A stretch of DNA of 64,000 bases from Maridesulfovibrio ferrireducens (GTDB lineage: Bacteria > Desulfobacterota > Desulfovibrionia > Desulfovibrionales > Desulfovibrionaceae), in NCBI RefSeq assembly GCF_016342405.1, contig NZ_JAEINN010000005.1, positions 62,001-126,000 on the forward strand. The letters are read 5' to 3'. A program made the translations under genes and the position numbers. The notes below the pieces were generated by a model. The model made no database searches, was not told where the DNA came from, and saw only the letters and a list, made by a program, of their open reading frames with translations. This document shows, one piece after another, positions 15,278 to 26,034 of this stretch. Numbering within the stretch: position 1 is the stretch's first letter; each line of letters opens with the position of its first letter.

Positions 15278-16118
15278 CTAATTCTTTTTTGATCTAAGAC
15301 CCCTGAGTATGTCTGTTTTATGAAATAATAAGATCAGGATAAAGGCTATTCCCAAAAGGATAACAGTTGCAGGGGTTGTCCATCCGGGTGAAGTTTTTTC
15401 CAGCGTGAGCCATTTATGAATAATTCTTTCCTTTTTTATTTTAGGAATTGAATTTATTCCGGCTACGATAGGTTTAAGCTTATCCATATGTTTTTTGCTT
15501 ACAGCCGGGCGTATTGATTTTGTGAAAAGGTCATAATAGCAGAAATTATTTTCTGCTCCCAGCTTGTTAAGATTATACATGGCGACTGGAAAATCTGCGA
15601 TAAATGCTTGAATCCGGTCTTTGGTTGCTGCATGAGTCATAAATGACGAGTGATACGTATGGGAAATTATCCTCCATAAATTTCTTTGAAAAACCTTCTT
15701 TTATTACCCCGCAGTTCAAGTTATCAAGATTGTCGATTTTGAAGTCGGTAAGTTTTTTTGAGACGAATAATCCTCCGCTAAAATTAAAGAATTTATCGCT
15801 GAAGTGCAGCTTTTCTGCCCGTTCTTTTGTGTAGAAGAGCCCTCCATGTACATCAGTATCTCCATTTGTCACTGAAGTGAGAGCTTGATTCCAGTTGCTA
15901 AGTTTAAAAACAACATCAATTCCAGTTTCTTCAGACCATAGTTTCCATATATCTATGATTATTCCTTGAGGGTTTCCTTTTTCATCGAGAAAAGAAAGTG
16001 GAGGCATTGAGGCAGAATGGGAGATTGTAAGCTGGGCTGCTGAGGCGAGCAGAGCGTTTTGCGGTATAAAAAATAGTGTAGCAATTATGAGAAATGTTAT
16101 TTTAGAATGAATATTCAC
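15278..16118 (-). pseudogene. Periplasmic substrate-binding (SBP_bac_3-like) membrane protein, frame broken
   Basis: Two overlapping frames encode halves of one protein. The first (start GTG 16118, signal peptide ending near ASAAQ) carries the N-terminal lobe (MPPLSFLDEKGNPQG, DTDVHGGLFYTKERAE). Near 15640-15615 homology passes to another frame, 15278-15640, continuing KDRIQAFIADFPVAMY, then a helix near its C terminus and a short basic tail. One extra base, or two missing bases, around 15630 would join them. The domain order matches binding-protein sensors of signalling enzymes, but no GGDEF or kinase follows. It could be a pseudogene or an assembly error; I saw no slippery heptamer. Confidence 0.75.
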
Positions 16119-16403
16119 AGCTCTCAACCTCTGTTTAAGGTAGAATAGTCGTTAATCGCAAAGAATAAAAAAAAGACATCCCAATGTAGTCTTAATTTAA
16201 AAGTTATGATCAGTTAAATTTCCGTATAAAGCTATTATTATTCTTATATATAAGGTTCGGGGGATAAACAAGCTTTTCAGGTGAAAATATATAATATATT
16301 ATAAGTGAATAGTAGGACTGTAGTGTCTTTTTTGAGATTAAGGCGGAAAGGGTAAAATTAAGCGAGGCAGAGTGAAAATCGTAAGTGAAGAGTTTAGTTC
16401 TAT

Positions 16404-19460: not shown

Positions 19461-21065
19461 TTATGCTGCCTCCTGCTTCAACCAGGTCTTCAGAACCTGC
19501 ACCGCCTGATCCATATTCTTTTCTGAAAGTTGCAGAGCCTGAGCCTTGGCGTTCTCCAGCTTACGTGCCGTATCTAGAGCCTCTTCGTCAAGGTCACTTT
19601 CATCAAGAGACAGTCTTTCTACACCTTCAGGAAGTCCTGCCATCTCATCAATGTCTTCTTCAGCGATGCGCGGTTTGATGAGAGCCATTACTACCGGGCG
19701 TACTACAAGGATCAGGAAGAGGAAGATGAGAAGCCCGTTAAGGAAAGGCTTTCCGAGTCTTTGAGCGTATTCAAGCATGGTGCGCATGAGTCCTTCGTCG
19801 CCGAAAGCATCCTGCATACCGAAGGTCATATTCGACACTTCAAGAGCATCTCCGCGGGTGGAATCGTAACCAACCGCCGAGCGAACTAATTCTCTGATGC
19901 GTTCCATTTCTTCTTCGGAACGCGGGATATATGTCATTTCACCTGTCTCAGCATTTTTCTCGTATGTGCCGTCGACTACGACTGCAACACTCAATCTTTT
20001 GAGTTCACCGACCGGGACAATTATCTGCTGTTCTTCTTTATTTATTTCATAGTTGGTTGTTTTGGTCTCACGGTTTGATTCCTGAGTTGTGGCTGTTCCA
20101 GTGAAACCGTCACCTCTGAAATTTGCTTCCGGGACTCCGCCGTCAACGTTGGCAGTACCCTTAGTGGTTTCTCCGCTTGACTGTTCACTGCGGGCAACCT
20201 GACTGTCAGGGTCAAATGCTTCTGTCTTGATAGTACGCTGTCTGAAATCGAGTTCTGCGTTAACTTTGGCGATAACTTTTTCTGTACCGACTATCGGCAT
20301 AAGCAACCGCTGAATGCGTTGCTCTATTTTACTTTCCATTTCAGCTTTATACTGAAGCTGGCTGGAACTGACATTTAAGCCCAGTCCGCCGTCTTCTTCA
20401 GGCTGATACAGAACTTGCCCACGCATATCCGTAATAGTGACATGTTGGCCCTTGAGCCCTTCAACAGACATGACAACCAGATTAAGGACACCCTTGATCT
20501 GCTTTTCAGAAAGCTTTTCGCCATCCTTGAGCTTCAAGACAACTGAAGCTGATGGTTCAGCCTGTTCTTCAATAAATAGAGATTTAGCGGGAAGTACAAG
20601 ATGAACTCTGGCTCTTTCTACCTGAGGAAATTCGCTGATTGTTCTTGCAAGTTCACCTTGAAGAGCGCGCTGATAGTTGATGCGCTGGATGAAGTCAGTT
20701 TGACCGATCTGCACTTCATCGAAAATTTCATAACCGATTCCCTGTCCGTGCATGGCTCCTTCACCTGCAATCTTGAGGCGCAGGTCATACACTCTGTCTG
20801 CAGGAACCAGAATTGTGGCACCGTTGTCCTCAATTTTGTAAGGTTCTTTAGTAGACTGCAAAATGCCTACAACGCGGGAAGCATCTTCAGTATAGAGTTT
20901 GGTGTAAAGGACTTTATAGTCTGTCTGGTTGAGCCAGAAGACCATAAGAAGGAAAGCAATTACAACAGAGGCAGCCAAACCTCCGATGAGAATCCGTTGG
21001 GATACTGTACGGTCGGACCAAAAATTTGTAAATTTAGCTAAGTACTCATTGAGGAAGTTGGGCAT
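19461..21065 (-). CDS. fliF: Flagellar MS-ring protein FliF
   Basis: FliF forms the MS ring in the inner membrane. There is an N-terminal helix at about 25-47 and a second helix near 440-460. Between them lie ring-building modules (TDYKVLYTKLYTEDA, IEQRIQRLLMPIVG) and a Gly/Ser/Thr-rich loop around 290-330. A possible TTG start at 21071 is only 1 nt from AGGAG, whereas ATG 21065 is 7 nt away and is preferred (534 residues). Confidence 0.96.
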   Translation of the reverse strand: MPNFLNEYLAKFTNFWSDRTVSQRILIGGLAASVVIAFLLMVFWLNQTDYKVLYTKLYTEDASRVVGILQSTKEPYKIEDNGATILVPADRVYDLRLKIAGEGAMHGQGIGYEIFDEVQIGQTDFIQRINYQRALQGELARTISEFPQVERARVHLVLPAKSLFIEEQAEPSASVVLKLKDGEKLSEKQIKGVLNLVVMSVEGLKGQHVTITDMRGQVLYQPEEDGGLGLNVSSSQLQYKAEMESKIEQRIQRLLMPIVGTEKVIAKVNAELDFRQRTIKTEAFDPDSQVARSEQSSGETTKGTANVDGGVPEANFRGDGFTGTATTQESNRETKTTNYEINKEEQQIIVPVGELKRLSVAVVVDGTYEKNAETGEMTYIPRSEEEMERIRELVRSAVGYDSTRGDALEVSNMTFGMQDAFGDEGLMRTMLEYAQRLGKPFLNGLLIFLFLILVVRPVVMALIKPRIAEEDIDEMAGLPEGVERLSLDESDLDEEALDTARKLENAKAQALQLSEKNMDQAVQVLKTWLKQEAA

Positions 21066-21190
21066 AATCAAACTCCTGACGATTTTTCTGAGAGAAAAGC
21101 AATAAGTGGTCCGACTTTATTAATCGTATATATTATAGTAAGTTATAAATTGCTTTTAGGCATATGCAGGAGGCCCTGCCAAAATAATGT

Positions 21191-21517
21191 CTAGAAAGGC
21201 ATTTTGAGGACTTCCTGATAAGCCGTCATCACTTTGCTGCGGACAGTGCTGGTCATACTCATAGCCAATCCGGCTTTCTGGAGTGATATCATCAGTTCGT
21301 GAACATTCTGATTTTTTCCTGAAGCAAAATCTTCGATCATAGATTTCTTTTGAGTCTGCAGGTCATTAACAGAAGTCAAAGAGGTTTTAAGCGTTTCGGT
21401 GAAGGAGTTTTCTTCAGGTTTGCCAAGCTTCATGACCGAGTCGAACTTTTTATCAAATTTGTTCTGGGTCTGAAGTGCGTTGGAGTAAGCTTGCATTGCT
21501 ACGTTTTTAATGGACAT
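21191..21517 (-). CDS. fliE: Flagellar hook-basal body protein FliE
   Basis: FliE joins the MS ring to the rod. The 108-residue size, helical composition and C-terminal motif (HELMISLQKAGLAMSMTSTVRSK) match the family. AAGGAG lies 7-8 nt before the ATG. A gap of about 120 bp separates it from fliF; I see no terminator in the gap. Confidence 0.93.
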   Translation of the reverse strand: MSIKNVAMQAYSNALQTQNKFDKKFDSVMKLGKPEENSFTETLKTSLTSVNDLQTQKKSMIEDFASGKNQNVHELMISLQKAGLAMSMTSTVRSKVMTAYQEVLKMPF

Positions 21518-21583
21518 TTTCTCTCTCCTTGATTTCCGAAATTCTATCTGCTGCGTTCTGTCTTTGACGGCTGTTAAGGTTTA

Positions 21584-22024
21584 TCAGCCCTGACCAATTC
21601 TAAGAGCGCGGTTGAACATTTTTTTGGCAGCGTCTACGGACTGTGCGTTAGCTTCGTACGATCTGCTGACTGTGATCATGTTAACCATTTCTTCCACCAC
21701 GTTGATGTCAGGGTATCTGACTATGCCCTTGGCATCGGCATCCGGGTGGTTAGGTTCAAATACTTCTTTAAATGGGCGGGTGTCGGAGACGATACCTCTG
21801 ACTGTTACGCCGCGTAGCTGCTGATTCATTTCACTGTTCATTGCTGTGTCAAAAGGAGAGAGCAGGGGAGTGGATTCCATGGCAACACTTTTACGGCGGT
21901 AAGGTCCGCCATCTGCGGTGCGCGTTGTTCTGGAGTTCGCCATATTCATTGATACGACGTTAAGATACTCTCTCTGCGCCTTGAGCCCGGAGGCTCCCAA
22001 TTCAAGTGCTGTCATGAAGTTCAT
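21584..22024 (-). CDS. flgC: Flagellar proximal rod protein FlgC
   Basis: The N-terminal rod motif (LNVVSMNMANSRTT) and the C-terminal motif (VNMITVSRSYEANAQ) are those of FlgC. The 146-residue length fits. The start overlaps the flgB stop by 1 nt (TAATG), so translation is coupled. Confidence 0.96.
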   Translation of the reverse strand: MNFMTALELGASGLKAQREYLNVVSMNMANSRTTRTADGGPYRRKSVAMESTPLLSPFDTAMNSEMNQQLRGVTVRGIVSDTRPFKEVFEPNHPDADAKGIVRYPDINVVEEMVNMITVSRSYEANAQSVDAAKKMFNRALRIGQG

Positions 22025-22434
22025 TATCTAGCTCCGTCCTGAATGATTTTTTGCATTCCCTGAAAACTTTTACTGACTATCTGAGTCAAGGCATTGTAGG
22101 CTAAAGTATTTTTGGCCATGGTTACCATTTCTTTATCAATGTCTACGGGATTTTCACCGTGGATAACTCTGGGTTCAAAATTTGAAAGAGTTCTGCCGCT
22201 GAATTTGTTCGCATCAAAAGTGGCAGGAATATGCATTTTACTGGTTTTGGTCATTTTGCCTCTGGCGTCTTTACCGATAGCTTTTTGGAGGCTGTCTTCA
22301 AATTCCAGTGTCTTCGCTTTGTAACCAGGGGTGTTAACGTTTGCGAGGTTGGATGCGACAAGATTTTGACGCTGGAGTCTTAAGTCCAAAACCTTACCTG
22401 TCAAAGCTACGTTACCTTCGAAAAGTCCTTTCAT
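22024..22434 (-). CDS. flgB: Flagellar proximal rod protein FlgB
   Basis: The rod-protein motif NLANVNTPGYKAK is near residue 31 and the FlgB C terminus with a conserved NALTQIVSKSF run is present. It is the first gene of a seven-gene operon. AGGAGG lies 8 nt before the ATG, and a sigma-54-type promoter lies about 80 bp upstream. Confidence 0.96.
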   Translation of the reverse strand: MKGLFEGNVALTGKVLDLRLQRQNLVASNLANVNTPGYKAKTLEFEDSLQKAIGKDARGKMTKTSKMHIPATFDANKFSGRTLSNFEPRVIHGENPVDIDKEMVTMAKNTLAYNALTQIVSKSFQGMQKIIQDGAR

Positions 22435-22510
22435 TTCTCAATCCTCCTGCAAAAATTTCCTGTTCTTCCATGATGCGGAAGCCACTTGGGGTAGTAAGTG
22501 ATTATTGAAT

Positions 22511-22527
22511 AGCAAGACTTGTTCCAA
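22511..22527 (-). promoter_or_regulatory. Sigma-54 (RpoN) promoter of the flgB operon
   Basis: On the minus strand the -24/-12 element reads TTGGAACAAGTCTTGCT, with the required 10 nt between GG and GC. The predicted transcript starts near 22500, leaving a leader of about 65 nt before flgB. RpoN control of basal-body genes is well known in polar flagellates. Confidence 0.75.
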
Positions 22528-22651
22528 GTTTGTAAGAGTCTGTTGTTTAAGCTTATTTTGTGAAAAGAAGCGTTGCTGTAATAGATGTGCGTCGTAAAAC
22601 GGGCGGTCTTTAAAAACCTATATATAATGAAGGAGGTGGTAGTTTTTGTCT

Positions 22652-22667
22652 TGGCATAGCAGTTGCA
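22652..22667 (+). promoter_or_regulatory. Sigma-54 (RpoN) promoter of the TPR gene
   Basis: The element TGGCATAGCAGTTGCA has exact GG-N10-GC spacing and a strong TTGCA -12 box. The predicted start is near 22678, about 68 nt before the TPR start codon. It diverges from the flgB promoter with about 125 bp between the two -24 elements. Confidence 0.78.
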
Positions 22668-22745
22668 TTATTTTTAGCAGGCCAATAATGGTCGAAAAAA
22701 ATGCCACCTATTTATTAAAGGCGGTAAATATTTTCGGAGGGGATT

Positions 22746-23300
22746 ATGAGTCATTTAGATTATGAAATTAACAAGGAACTCGGTGAGTGTTATCTGTTTA
22801 TGGGTGAACTGGATAAAGCTGAAGATTACTACAAGAAGGCTGCCGGATCTAACGGTGTGCATCCCGATCCTTATATCGGGCTTGCTACCATCGCGATTCA
22901 ACGCGGTGAGTATGATTCTGCCATGGCTCTTTACAAGAAGGCACATTCTGTAGAAGTTACTGATAAGAGCTTCGCAGGAATGGGACTCATTCTGATGGAA
23001 ACCGCCAAAAAGAATGAAGCCTTTGAAAGTTTTTCCGATGCCTTGAAGATTAATCCGAGCAACATGGTTGCACTTTTCGGTATAATCAGAATCGGACACG
23101 AAGCTGAAATTGTTGATCAGGCAGTTCCATTTTTGGAAAATTTCCTAGCCATTGAACCTGAAAAGCACGAAGTCCGTTATTCTTTAGCCGGTTGTTTCAT
23201 TTGCATGGACAAGAAAGCTGAAGCTGTAGAACAACTCGAAATGATCCTTGAAATGGATCCCGCAAATGCTGCGGCAAAGGAACTGCTCGAGCAGATTTAA
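22746..23300 (+). CDS. Tetratricopeptide-repeat protein
   Basis: This 184-residue soluble protein consists almost entirely of TPR units: repeats begin near residues 4, 40, 73, 107 and 143 with the usual W/L-G-Y/F and A/P positions. The last repeat ends in EMDPANAAAKELLEQI. There is no signal peptide or enzyme domain, so it is a protein-binding scaffold. GGAGG precedes the ATG. A sigma-54 promoter facing away from the flagellar operon suggests co-regulation with motility; a role as chaperone or adaptor is inference. Confidence 0.85.
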   Translation: MSHLDYEINKELGECYLFMGELDKAEDYYKKAAGSNGVHPDPYIGLATIAIQRGEYDSAMALYKKAHSVEVTDKSFAGMGLILMETAKKNEAFESFSDALKINPSNMVALFGIIRIGHEAEIVDQAVPFLENFLAIEPEKHEVRYSLAGCFICMDKKAEAVEQLEMILEMDPANAAAKELLEQI

Positions 23301-23345
23301 GCTCCGCGGAACCTTTATATAAAGTCGACTCCCCTCCAGGTTGGT

Positions 23346-23379
23346 CCCGTCCTTTAATTAATGTTAATTAAAGGACGGG
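23346..23379. repeat. Perfect 16-bp inverted repeat before purH
   Basis: The arms at 23346-23361 and 23364-23379 match exactly with a 2-nt centre. There is no T-run on the plus side, so a normal terminator is unlikely. It could be an operator or an RNA hairpin in the leader between the TPR gene and purH. Confidence 0.7.
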
Positions 23380-23469
23380 GGCCGATACTGGCAAAATGTA
23401 AGAGCGGGAGCTTGCCTTTGGCGGATAATTCCGGCACAACTCCACAAAAACAATAGTGGGAGAAGTGTT

Positions 23470-24069
23470 ATGGATATGTTGCCTATAAAGCGCGGTGTTC
23501 TCAGTGTTACTGATAAATCCGGACTCGCTGCATTTGCGTCTGATTTGGCTGGTTTCGGTGTAGAACTTATAAGCACCGGTGGAACCAGAAAAGCTCTTAA
23601 AGATGCAGGTCTTACTGTTAAGTCAGTAAGCGACGTTACCGGTTTCCCTGAAATAATGGGCGGACGTGTCAAAACTTTGCACCCTAATGTGCATGGTGGA
23701 GTGCTCGCGGATAAGGATAACCCTGAACACATGTCGACTCTTGATGAACATGGAATCAAGACGATCGATATGGTTTGTGTAAACTTGTATAATTTTGCCA
23801 AGGCTGTCAGCGAAGGGCAGGATCTCAGGAGCGCTGTTGAGCAAATCGACATCGGTGGTCCTACTATGCTTCGTGCTGCCGCAAAGAATTTTCATTCCGT
23901 TCTGGTTGTCCCCAGTCCTGTACATTATCCCCGTATTCTGAAAGAAATGAAGAATAATGACGGCAAGATCTCTCTAGCACTTAGAAAAGAACTTGCCGCA
24001 GAAACTTTTGCGCTTGTTTCAGAGTACGATTCCATGATAGCCAAGTATTTGGCAGAACACGACGCGTAA
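23470..24069 (+). CDS. purH: IMP cyclohydrolase (stand-alone PurH N-terminal half)
   Basis: The enzyme closes FAICAR to IMP, the last step of purine synthesis. The MGS-like fold is complete: GVLSVTDKSGL at the start, STGGTRKAL, GGRVKTLHP and the GGPTMLRAAAKN motif. At 199 residues the AICAR formyltransferase half of ordinary 520-residue PurH is absent, and the frame ends cleanly rather than being truncated. A separate formyltransferase must exist elsewhere. GGGAG upstream supports ATG 23470. Confidence 0.93.
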   Translation: MDMLPIKRGVLSVTDKSGLAAFASDLAGFGVELISTGGTRKALKDAGLTVKSVSDVTGFPEIMGGRVKTLHPNVHGGVLADKDNPEHMSTLDEHGIKTIDMVCVNLYNFAKAVSEGQDLRSAVEQIDIGGPTMLRAAAKNFHSVLVVPSPVHYPRILKEMKNNDGKISLALRKELAAETFALVSEYDSMIAKYLAEHDA

Positions 24070-24148
24070 ATATTTAAGCGGGACGACAGATTTCTGACGT
24101 TCCGCTTTCACTGTTCAAATATCCTGCGGGATAAAGGAAGATGCAGCC

Positions 24149-25795
24149 ATCGCTCTGAAAGTAAAAGGAAATACGCAAGGGCTTAAGCCCAGAGAAATCA
24201 AACGGATCAACCGTCTTGCGGAGCGCAGTTATAGCGATCCGTGCGGATATTCTAATGAACAGGCCCGTGAGCTTTCAATTCTCAGTAATGAGATAGGAAG
24301 GCAGATCGGTTTGCTTGTAAATCGACAGGGCCGTCCTGAGATGATTCTTGTCGGCGATCCCACATCGATTTATATTCCTGAATTGCCCAGAGCCCGACAG
24401 TCTGAAGGACGGTTGCGAGGACTCAGGCTGCTGCATACTCATATTTCAGGGGAAAATCTTTCAGAAGAAGATCTTATGGATATGGTTTTCCTGCGGCTGG
24501 ACAATGTGACAGTCATCGTTTCCGATTCTCATGGTGATCCTGAGTTTGTTCAATATGGCTACCTTCTCCCTCCGGGGTCAGGAGAAAAAGCATATGAGCA
24601 GTTACCTCCGGTTCGCTGGGACACTTCGGACATGGATCTGCCGGCACAAGTCAAAGCTCTTGAAGAAGAATTTAGCCGCGCGGATAAAACCAGAGATATG
24701 GCGGATAAGCGTGAACGGGCGATTGTGGTCAGCGTATCTCAGGATTCTAAGACGATTCAGGATCGTTCTCTCGATGAGTTGGTGGATCTTGCTGATACTG
24801 CAGGTCTCAAAGTCGAAGGGCGGATGATTCAGCGGATTCGTCAGATTAATCCCAAATTTATTATGGGTAAGGGAAAGCTTGCAGAGCTTGAAATTCTGGC
24901 ATTGCAGGCGGATGCAGAAGTTGTTCTGTTTGATCAGGAAATTTCTGCTGCTCAGATGCGAAACCTTGCTACTATCACCGAACGTAAAGTTCTGGACCGC
25001 ACACAGCTGATTCTTGATATTTTTGCTCAGCATGCCACAACAAAAGCCGGCAGGCTGCAAGTTGAAATGGCGCAGCTCAAGTATATGATGCCCCGTCTTG
25101 TCGGAAAGAATGATGCCATGTCACGTTTGATGGGTGGTATCGGCGGTCGAGGTCCGGGTGAAACTAAGCTGGAAATTGACCGCAGACGAGTTAAAGATAA
25201 ACTAACTAAGCTTGGCAATGAGCTGAAAAAAGTTAGCAAACAGAGGGGCTTTACACGGGATCGTCGCGCTCGGGCCGGTGTTCCGGTTGTTTCTCTTGTC
25301 GGTTATACAAATGCCGGAAAATCCACCTTGCTCAATACTTTGACAAACAGTGTGGTACTTGCTGAAGATAAGCTTTTTGCAACTCTTGATCCGACCAGCA
25401 GGCGCATTCGCTTTCCTAATGATCAGGAACTAATTCTTACTGACACTGTCGGTTTCATTCGTCAGTTACCTAAGGAATTGAAAGAAGCTTTCAGGGCTAC
25501 TCTTGAAGAACTTGAGGCCGCAGATATTATGGTACATGTTGCTGATGTATCTCATCCTGAAGTGGAAGAGCAGATCGAAGCGGTTGAAAAGATTATTGAA
25601 GAAATGGAAATGAATGAGGTTCCCATAATTCTTGTTTTAAATAAATGGGATAGGATAAATGAAGATCAACGTGAAATGATGCAGAATTATTTTCCTCAAG
25701 GAATTCCAGCAAGCGCGCGGGACCGTAAGTCTTTAAGGCCCTTGGTTGAACTTATTCTTGAGAAGCTTGGAAAACTGTCAAAAAAAGTTAGATAG
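24149..25795 (+). CDS. hflX: Ribosome-associated GTPase HflX, start uncertain
   Basis: HflX splits stalled ribosomes. The G domain shows GYTNAGKST, DTVGFIRQLP and NKWD, preceded by the HflX domain with GGIGGRGPGETKLE. The longest ATG/GTG/TTG frame begins at TTG 24311, but conserved family sequence (KGNTQGLKPREIK) continues about 50 codons upstream in the same frame, which is open back to 24098 and has no ATG, GTG or TTG. AAGGA at 24134-24138 precedes ATC 24149; ATG 24141 is in another frame and stops after five codons. A rare start codon or a one-base indel is implied. Confidence 0.9.
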   Translation: MALKVKGNTQGLKPREIKRINRLAERSYSDPCGYSNEQARELSILSNEIGRQIGLLVNRQGRPEMILVGDPTSIYIPELPRARQSEGRLRGLRLLHTHISGENLSEEDLMDMVFLRLDNVTVIVSDSHGDPEFVQYGYLLPPGSGEKAYEQLPPVRWDTSDMDLPAQVKALEEEFSRADKTRDMADKRERAIVVSVSQDSKTIQDRSLDELVDLADTAGLKVEGRMIQRIRQINPKFIMGKGKLAELEILALQADAEVVLFDQEISAAQMRNLATITERKVLDRTQLILDIFAQHATTKAGRLQVEMAQLKYMMPRLVGKNDAMSRLMGGIGGRGPGETKLEIDRRRVKDKLTKLGNELKKVSKQRGFTRDRRARAGVPVVSLVGYTNAGKSTLLNTLTNSVVLAEDKLFATLDPTSRRIRFPNDQELILTDTVGFIRQLPKELKEAFRATLEELEAADIMVHVADVSHPEVEEQIEAVEKIIEEMEMNEVPIILVLNKWDRINEDQREMMQNYFPQGIPASARDRKSLRPLVELILEKLGKLSKKVR

Positions 25796-25837
25796 ATTCT
25801 TTACTGACAGTTTGCTGATATTTTATTTATAGTTGGT

Positions 25838-25880
25838 AAAGGCCCATCACGGAATTTCCGTGGTGGGCCTTTTTATTTTT
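25838..25880 (+). terminator. Intrinsic terminator after hflX
   Basis: A 15-bp GC-rich stem with one G-U pair (AAGGCCCATCACGGA arm) and a 3-nt loop is followed by a T-run. Confidence 0.9.
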
Positions 25881-26034
25881 ATATGATATAATTATAGAAC
25901 TCGTTGAGATGTTTTTGACCGGGAGTGCTAAAACATTGTTGCAAGTGTTATATGAATTTTGCTAAAGCTATCTGGTTCCTGATGGAATATAAAAAAATAT
26001 CGAGGGCCGTAAAGGCTGTGTGATGGAGGAAGCT

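Follow-up and report, generated by a model that had tools for sequence, protein, structure and literature searches.

The closest described counterpart of this locus lies in Desulfovibrio vulgaris Hildenborough, where DVU0316-DVU0310 and DVU0318 are listed in the sigma-54 regulon of the FlbD-like activator DVU1063 (PMC4641369). In the regulon part of that report, the upstream regions of DVU0316 and DVU0318 are, together with two others, the seeds for the Desulfovibrio sigma-54 motif, chosen for their fit to 5'-RNA-seq data, and activator sites 40-70 bp downstream of the promoters are reported mostly for DVU1063 (PMC4641369). The site of this activator is given as GGCAxxxxTGCC and likened to that of Caulobacter FlbD (PMC3333781). 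On the side of the protein, the TPR (tetratricopeptide repeat) domain of Caulobacter FlmG is described as binding flagellins, in a field where the specificity of O-linked protein glycosylation is called poorly understood (PMC7591256).

The locus studied here lies in a window of 64,000 nucleotides from Maridesulfovibrio ferrireducens (the whole stretch of DNA that was analysed) and comprises the rod gene flgB, a divergent TPR gene and the control region between them. Judged by gene order, DVU0318 is very probably the TPR gene, since 601 to 653 bp separate that gene from flgB in Nitratidesulfovibrio and its kin (L053, L055, L058); on the same basis DVU0316 is taken as flgB, and DVU0316-DVU0310, seven genes in all, would correspond to the flgB-fliI run of the window, which also has seven. 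We consider it highly probable, as a joint reading, that two independent divergent sigma-54 promoters serve flgB and the TPR gene, that the same FlbD-type activator most likely acts on both, and that the TPR protein is a likely adaptor for an export substrate.

The control region between flgB and the TPR gene

The first-pass annotation had described two -24/-12 elements on opposite strands with exact GG-N10-GC spacing, about 125 bp apart, each serving a gene with a good ribosome site. Direct reading of the sequence bears this out (Table 1): the elements are separated by 123 bp, they lie 77 nt from flgB and 79 nt from the TPR gene, and a purine-rich ribosome site precedes each start codon. Its description of the promoters as facing was wrong, since the minus-strand element reads to flgB (start 22434) and the plus-strand element to the TPR gene (start 22746); the two point away from each other, divergent and back to back, and a facing arrangement is ruled out. 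Transcript starts are predicted from the elements at about 22502 for the flgB operon and about 22677 for the TPR gene. When 17 sequences of the genus are aligned, both elements, both ribosome sites, blocks in the leaders and a box between the promoters stand out against variable surroundings; the box sits midway between the two promoters and is kept genus-wide. A sigma-70 promoter for the TPR gene was sought and rejected, the sole promoter-like match in 22400-23480 being on the minus strand and such matches being fewer than in shuffled sequence. Nothing in 21000-26000 reached the gathering score of an Rfam model.

Table 1. Features of the control region and its flanking genes, in window coordinates
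Feature	Position	Strand	Basis or remarks
flgB, rod protein	22024-22434	minus	Pfam Flg_bb_rod; first gene of a seven-gene run
Leader block over the flgB ribosome site	22442-22460	minus	Highly conserved in 17 genus sequences
Sigma-54 -24/-12 element of the flgB operon, TTGGAACAAGTCTTGCT	22527-22511	minus	Exact GG-N10-GC; conserved in 64/64 flgB loci
Conserved box between the promoters, GTCGTAAAACGGGC	22591-22604		Genus alignment; weakly resembles FlrA/FleQ-type GTCA-N6-TGAC
Sigma-54 -24/-12 element of the TPR gene, TTGGCATAGCAGTTGCA	22651-22667	plus	Exact GG-N10-GC; conserved in 95/97 TPR loci
Hairpin at the predicted 5' end of the TPR mRNA	22680-22693	plus	Folding and covariation
Candidate FlbD-type palindrome in the TPR leader, GGTCGAAAAAAATGCCACC	22690-22708 (core 22693-22705)	plus	Block conserved in the genus; weak alone
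TPR gene, 184-aa protein	22746-23300	plus	Pfam TPR; five TPR pairs and a cap helix
Strong hairpin between the TPR gene and purH	23336-23391	plus	-34.5 kcal/mol, z -8.0

On the minus strand, flgB opens a run that spans 22434 down to 16404, whose further genes we take, from their open reading frames and from recall, to be flgC-fliE-fliF-fliG-fliH-fliI. Beyond this run, at 15278-16127, lie two overlapping minus-strand open reading frames, one with a family 3 solute-binding domain, which may be one frameshifted gene. The order flgB - TPR - purH - hflX is widely kept among the fetched loci; purH of the window (23470-24069) is a short form, with an MGS domain and the first 59 positions only of the AICARFT/IMPCHase model. 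The hairpin between the TPR gene and purH is not followed by a U-run and was not called by terminator scoring, and it possibly ends the TPR transcript; in the TPR-purH gaps of 58 loci, the best 60-nt folds range from -20.9 to -48.6, values that carry no shuffle control. With so strong a hairpin between them, even one without a U-run, it is less likely that the TPR gene and purH form a single operon.

Conservation across the Desulfovibrionales and co-occurrence with the flagellum

Taken alone, a consensus scan is weak evidence for the promoter pair, as five sites in the window score 11 or more and eight shuffled windows hold 0 to 5 such sites. Besides the two elements these are 33098, inside a ClC-type gene, and 61285, inside a ribosomal-protein gene cluster, both probably spurious, and 41234. 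Such equal-scoring sites are what would speak for both elements being chance matches, a reading that is contradicted by conservation of the elements throughout the order at similar distance from the start codons, and to which we attach next to no probability. Counting an element where it scores at least 10 of 13 and lies 40-210 nt before the start codon, we found it on the TPR side in 95 of 97 loci (shuffles mean 2.8, maximum 6) and on the flgB side in all 64 (shuffles mean 1.7, maximum 5), the flgB and pair counts being drawn from L002-L067 only, with later-found linked loci left out. Because some genomes occur twice among the loci (L032/L007, L033/L013 and others), non-redundant counts were also made, giving 80 of 82 on the TPR side (60 shuffled sets, mean 2.5, maximum 6) and 55 of 55 on the flgB side (shuffles mean 1.3, maximum 4). 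Of the 64 linked loci that were counted, 63 have both elements, so that the pair, which the first-pass annotation had proposed to seek in relatives, is present across the Desulfovibrionales, and it is this order-wide conservation that lifts it above chance. The two TPR loci without an element at score 10 are L062 and L137, the latter with a site of score 9, and the site counted on the TPR side of L020 is poor. Each gene is thus preceded, at a similar place in relatives, by a conserved GG-N10-GC element.

The TPR gene is not always beside flgB. Fourteen examined genomes (genera g40, g47, g50 and g7) have no flgB within 1.5 kb of it, and 11 of them carry flgB elsewhere. In the one-contig genomes G100, G104, G105, G141 and G245 the distance along the sequence is 0.41 to 2.2 Mb (1.18 Mb in G100, 1.34 Mb in G104), and in five further genomes flgB is on another contig. 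In G084, fliF lies 188 kb from the TPR gene, and flgB, too, retains a sigma-54 element of its own. No flgB was detected in G111, G144 or G248. The neighbours of the unlinked TPR genes vary, and include polA, cmk, a pseudouridine-synthase-like gene and uvrC (named by reading open reading frames). The sigma-54 element is kept at 13 of the 14 unlinked TPR loci (shuffles mean 0.5, maximum 4), and at 10 of the 11 whose flgB is elsewhere, L137 being the exception. The pair is therefore not an obligate unit; each promoter stays with the gene that it serves.

Presence of the TPR gene follows that of the flagellum. Among 247 genomes of the order, each at least 90% complete, 205 have both the TPR gene and fliF, 3 the TPR gene only, 6 fliF only and 33 neither, as tabulated by comparing the listed TPR and fliF rows by eye; the two genes agree in 238 of 247 genomes, and 205 of the 211 fliF-bearing genomes have the TPR gene (Fisher's p 2e-31, a value uncorrected for kinship that should not be read at face value). 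The genomes with fliF only are G038, G040, G044, G056, G246 and G251, the last two of which have TPR-bearing congeners. Those with the TPR gene only are G111, G144 and G248. FliG is present in G248, in which a flagellum is therefore probable, a fragment of it in G111 and none in G144; these last two genomes carry the TPR gene without fliF, flgB or a full FliG. FliG and purH were checked in 20 of the 33 genomes with neither gene, where FliG was above cut-off in none and purH was retained in 17. Genera g7, g40 and g47 contain genomes with both genes and genomes with neither; if the genera are natural groups, the TPR gene and fliF must have been lost together on three or more separate occasions. 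Every TPR copy examined in these genera lies away from flgB. Conservation of the element across the order, its retention at unlinked loci and the co-occurrence with fliF together support the TPR gene as a member of the flagellar regulon.

These observations, with the D. vulgaris data, uphold what the first-pass annotation had proposed on sigma-54 control of the TPR gene and its place in the flagellar regulon. Its further suggestion that the protein was not previously assigned is only partly right, for DVU0318 already stands beside DVU0316 in the published D. vulgaris regulon (PMC4641369). Regulation of the pair is thus mostly known for that species, and what is strengthened here is the flagellar assignment of the TPR gene. 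The relevant parts of two papers on Desulfovibrio motility (PMC4114195, PMC12316311) name no such TPR gene, and among the titles listed of published Desulfovibrio work on tetratricopeptide with flgB, or on flagellin glycosylation or Maf, none was on point. Several lines of evidence move an unnamed TPR gene into the flagellar programme.

Leaders and the candidate activator

Motifs were sought de novo in non-redundant leaders from outside the genus (60 TPR and 35 flgB). The TPR leaders yielded the palindromic motif GGcaaaNtttgCC (likelihood 65.7, where 20 shuffled sets reached no more than 46.6) and the flgB leaders GGcagaNtctgCC (a result without shuffle control), and the matrix built on the TPR leaders scores the 35 flgB leaders above all 100 shuffles. 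The motif is similar to the published DVU1063 site (PMC3333781). In the first run, which included the genus, the FlbD-like motif came first for the TPR leaders and behind AT-rich motifs for the flgB leaders. A good palindrome match is missing in many leaders of distant families. The window's own copies are degenerate and individually weak: with the matrix trained on other genera, the core in the TPR leader ranks 22nd in the 64-kb window, while the candidate FlbD-type site of the flgB leader (core 22448-22460) is 4th best. Conservation of the flgB block that holds this site may reflect no more than its ribosome site, or perhaps a CsrA-type site.

Two proteins of this genome were considered as activators. 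L077 has FlbD as its best NCBIfam match, at 427.9 bits against a cut-off of 750, and carries a GAFTGA motif; no phospho-Asp is obvious by eye in its receiver domain. L072 is an FlrA/DVU2894-type protein with a GAFTHA motif. The palindrome GTCATTTCATTGAC (GTCA-N6-TGAC) lies at L072:1353-1366, before the FlrA/DVU2894-like gene, where such a palindrome is predicted for DVU2894 orthologues (PMC4641369). FlrA-type control of the promoter pair was set aside, as the box between the promoters matches GTCA-N6-TGAC weakly. A single enhancer shared by both promoters would be hypothetical: that box is seen in the genus alignment only, and candidate activator sites occur in both leaders.

The predicted TPR transcripts also share structure at their 5' end. 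Over 62 leaders, the first 26 nt fold to a mean energy of -5.55, against -4.11 (sd 0.22) for shuffled sequences, a difference reached in 0 of 100 shuffles, whereas flgB leaders (n = 49) fold no better than their shuffles (25 of 100) and the TPR leader of the window, taken alone, is not significant (z -1.0). The hairpin is kept between genera with covariation, the score of the stem in 18 chosen leaders being above all 500 shuffles and all slides; two of five covariation measures do not stand out in these hand-chosen and imperfectly aligned leaders. The structure could instead be a DNA palindrome.

Role of the TPR protein and comparison with known systems

The protein has TPR repeats and, in an AlphaFold2 model of 11 helices (mean pLDDT 94.9), a TPR fold; no export signal is evident by eye. 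Residues 4-20 (LDYEINKELGECYLFMG) are identical across all 29 aligned orthologues, a selection that leaves out L147-L149 (36-41% identity), and the more divergent L138, also outside the 29, departs from this block. We take such invariance to exceed what TPR packing would need, which suggests a fixed partner. Searches with the model gave 1730 Foldseek matches at E<=10, and VIA-align compared 967 chains, all with Z of at least 2, headed by the TPR domain of OGT (Z 20.9, rmsd 2.0, 177 aligned); as judged from the model, these matches are generic and uninformative on function. Across 58 genomes, this one included, orthologues were called in 48 at E<1e-40, the next best match standing at 2.4e-12.

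Genomic context gives a hint of the function. Among 296 genomes of the phylum, six outside the order match the TPR protein at E<=1e-15, and five of these loci were fetched. In four, all of family f37 (L166-L169), the TPR gene adjoins a glycosyltransferase of one family, followed by a GT9 enzyme (by Pfam in L169, by reading in the other f37 loci); in the fifth (L170) it adjoins another, multi-domain glycosyltransferase gene. Three of the f37 glycosyltransferases were scanned and contain Glyco_trans_1_2 and DUF3880, with a Maf N-terminal match in two of the three, one of them under cut-off. The same family of enzyme is encoded directly behind motA-motB in this genome (L182:5984-9213, with DUF3880 and Glyco_trans_1_2 domains) and in 4 of 10 fetched relatives. 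Over the 58 genomes (sets compiled by hand from search rows), the TPR gene and this enzyme agree in 55 (46 both, 9 neither), and among those with fliF the table reads 46/1/1/6. The TPR gene and fliF agree in 50 of the 58, the difference from 55 lying in the TPR-less fliF-bearing genomes, six of seven of which are without the enzyme too.

These data raise the possibility, which we advance tentatively, that the protein works as an adaptor in flagellin glycosylation or export, a stand-alone equivalent of the flagellin-binding half of FlmG, and that it serves the motAB-linked DUF3880 glycosyltransferase. The distant TPR relatives on which this partly draws are 26-31% identical in a fold whose sequence similarity is promiscuous, the OGT matches are generic, TPR gene and glycosyltransferase were not seen as neighbours within the order, and Fisher values for the association ignore kinship, the TPR-less flagellated genomes coming from few families. 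Action of the enzyme on flagellin is hypothetical, and we have lowered our estimate slightly because the L182 enzyme has no match to the Maf model, its Maf-like character resting on a relation of about 34% to L167. Doubtful, to a greater degree, is the fuller proposal of a new adaptor that would recognize flagellin for the DUF3880 enzyme before export, be timed by sigma-54 with the basal body, and have its stability or translation set by the mRNA hairpin. Small cytoplasmic TPR proteins tied to the type III export machine make up the SycD/LcrH family, and a chaperone or assembly factor for rod or hook subunits, akin to these class II chaperones, would agree with the cytoplasmic TPR build, the co-occurrence with fliF, the divergence from flgB in most lineages and a promoter class shared with the rod operon. 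Similarity to SycD/LcrH is weak, however, at 48.7 bits far under the curated family cut-off of 104.8, other TPR families score alike or higher, and fliF-bearing genomes of families f3 and f6 are without the TPR gene; we hold a chaperone of this kind to be a tentative possibility, slightly behind the flagellin adaptor. The first-pass annotation had offered a chaperone or timing factor, and the context evidence leans instead to a flagellin-glycosylation or export adaptor.

The housekeeping neighbours purH and hflX, and the retention of the TPR gene in G111 and G144 without fliF or flgB, would fit a general cellular role for a gene that merely borrows the neighbouring flagellar control region. 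That reading is hard to square with the 13 of 14 elements kept away from flgB, or with the loss of the TPR gene along with fliF in at least three mixed genera (g7, g40, g47), purH being retained by 17 of the 20 genomes checked, and we judge it very improbable. Under the preferred reading of two independent promoters with a common activator, one promoter would drive the flgB-fliI rod and basal-body operon and the other a probably single-gene transcript for the small cytoplasmic TPR protein. Within the flagellar programme both would fall into the sigma-54 class, and the same FlbD-type enhancer-binding protein (candidate L077, as orthologue of DVU1063) would most likely open them from leader sites that resemble GGCA-N5-TGCC and lie downstream of the respective promoter. 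The TPR protein would then be made with the basal body and would most likely bind, as an adaptor, a substrate of flagellar export; flagellin, the rod proteins and the motAB-linked glycosyltransferase are its candidate partners.

With the SycD/LcrH proteins it shares small size, a cytoplasmic TPR build and a link to type III export, but it falls far below the cut-off of that family and has five TPR pairs. As in FlmG of Caulobacter, its TPR repeats could bind cytoplasmic flagellin; FlmG is one protein with its TPR domain fused to a GT-B domain (PMC7591256), whereas here the 184 residues are TPR only, without a GT-B domain, and any enzyme is separate. The leader palindrome resembles the core GGCA-N5-TGCC of Caulobacter FlbD and its ftr sites (PMC3333781), and FlbD is the best NCBIfam match of L077, which scores below the model cut-off and is a candidate only. 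The DVU1063 regulon offers a seven-gene operon and the nearby DVU0318, both with sigma-54 promoters, and a similar palindrome (PMC4641369, PMC3333781); the regulon part of the D. vulgaris report lists DVU0318 without mention of TPR (PMC4641369), whereas the present analysis traces the pair through the order and includes TPR copies that have parted from flgB.
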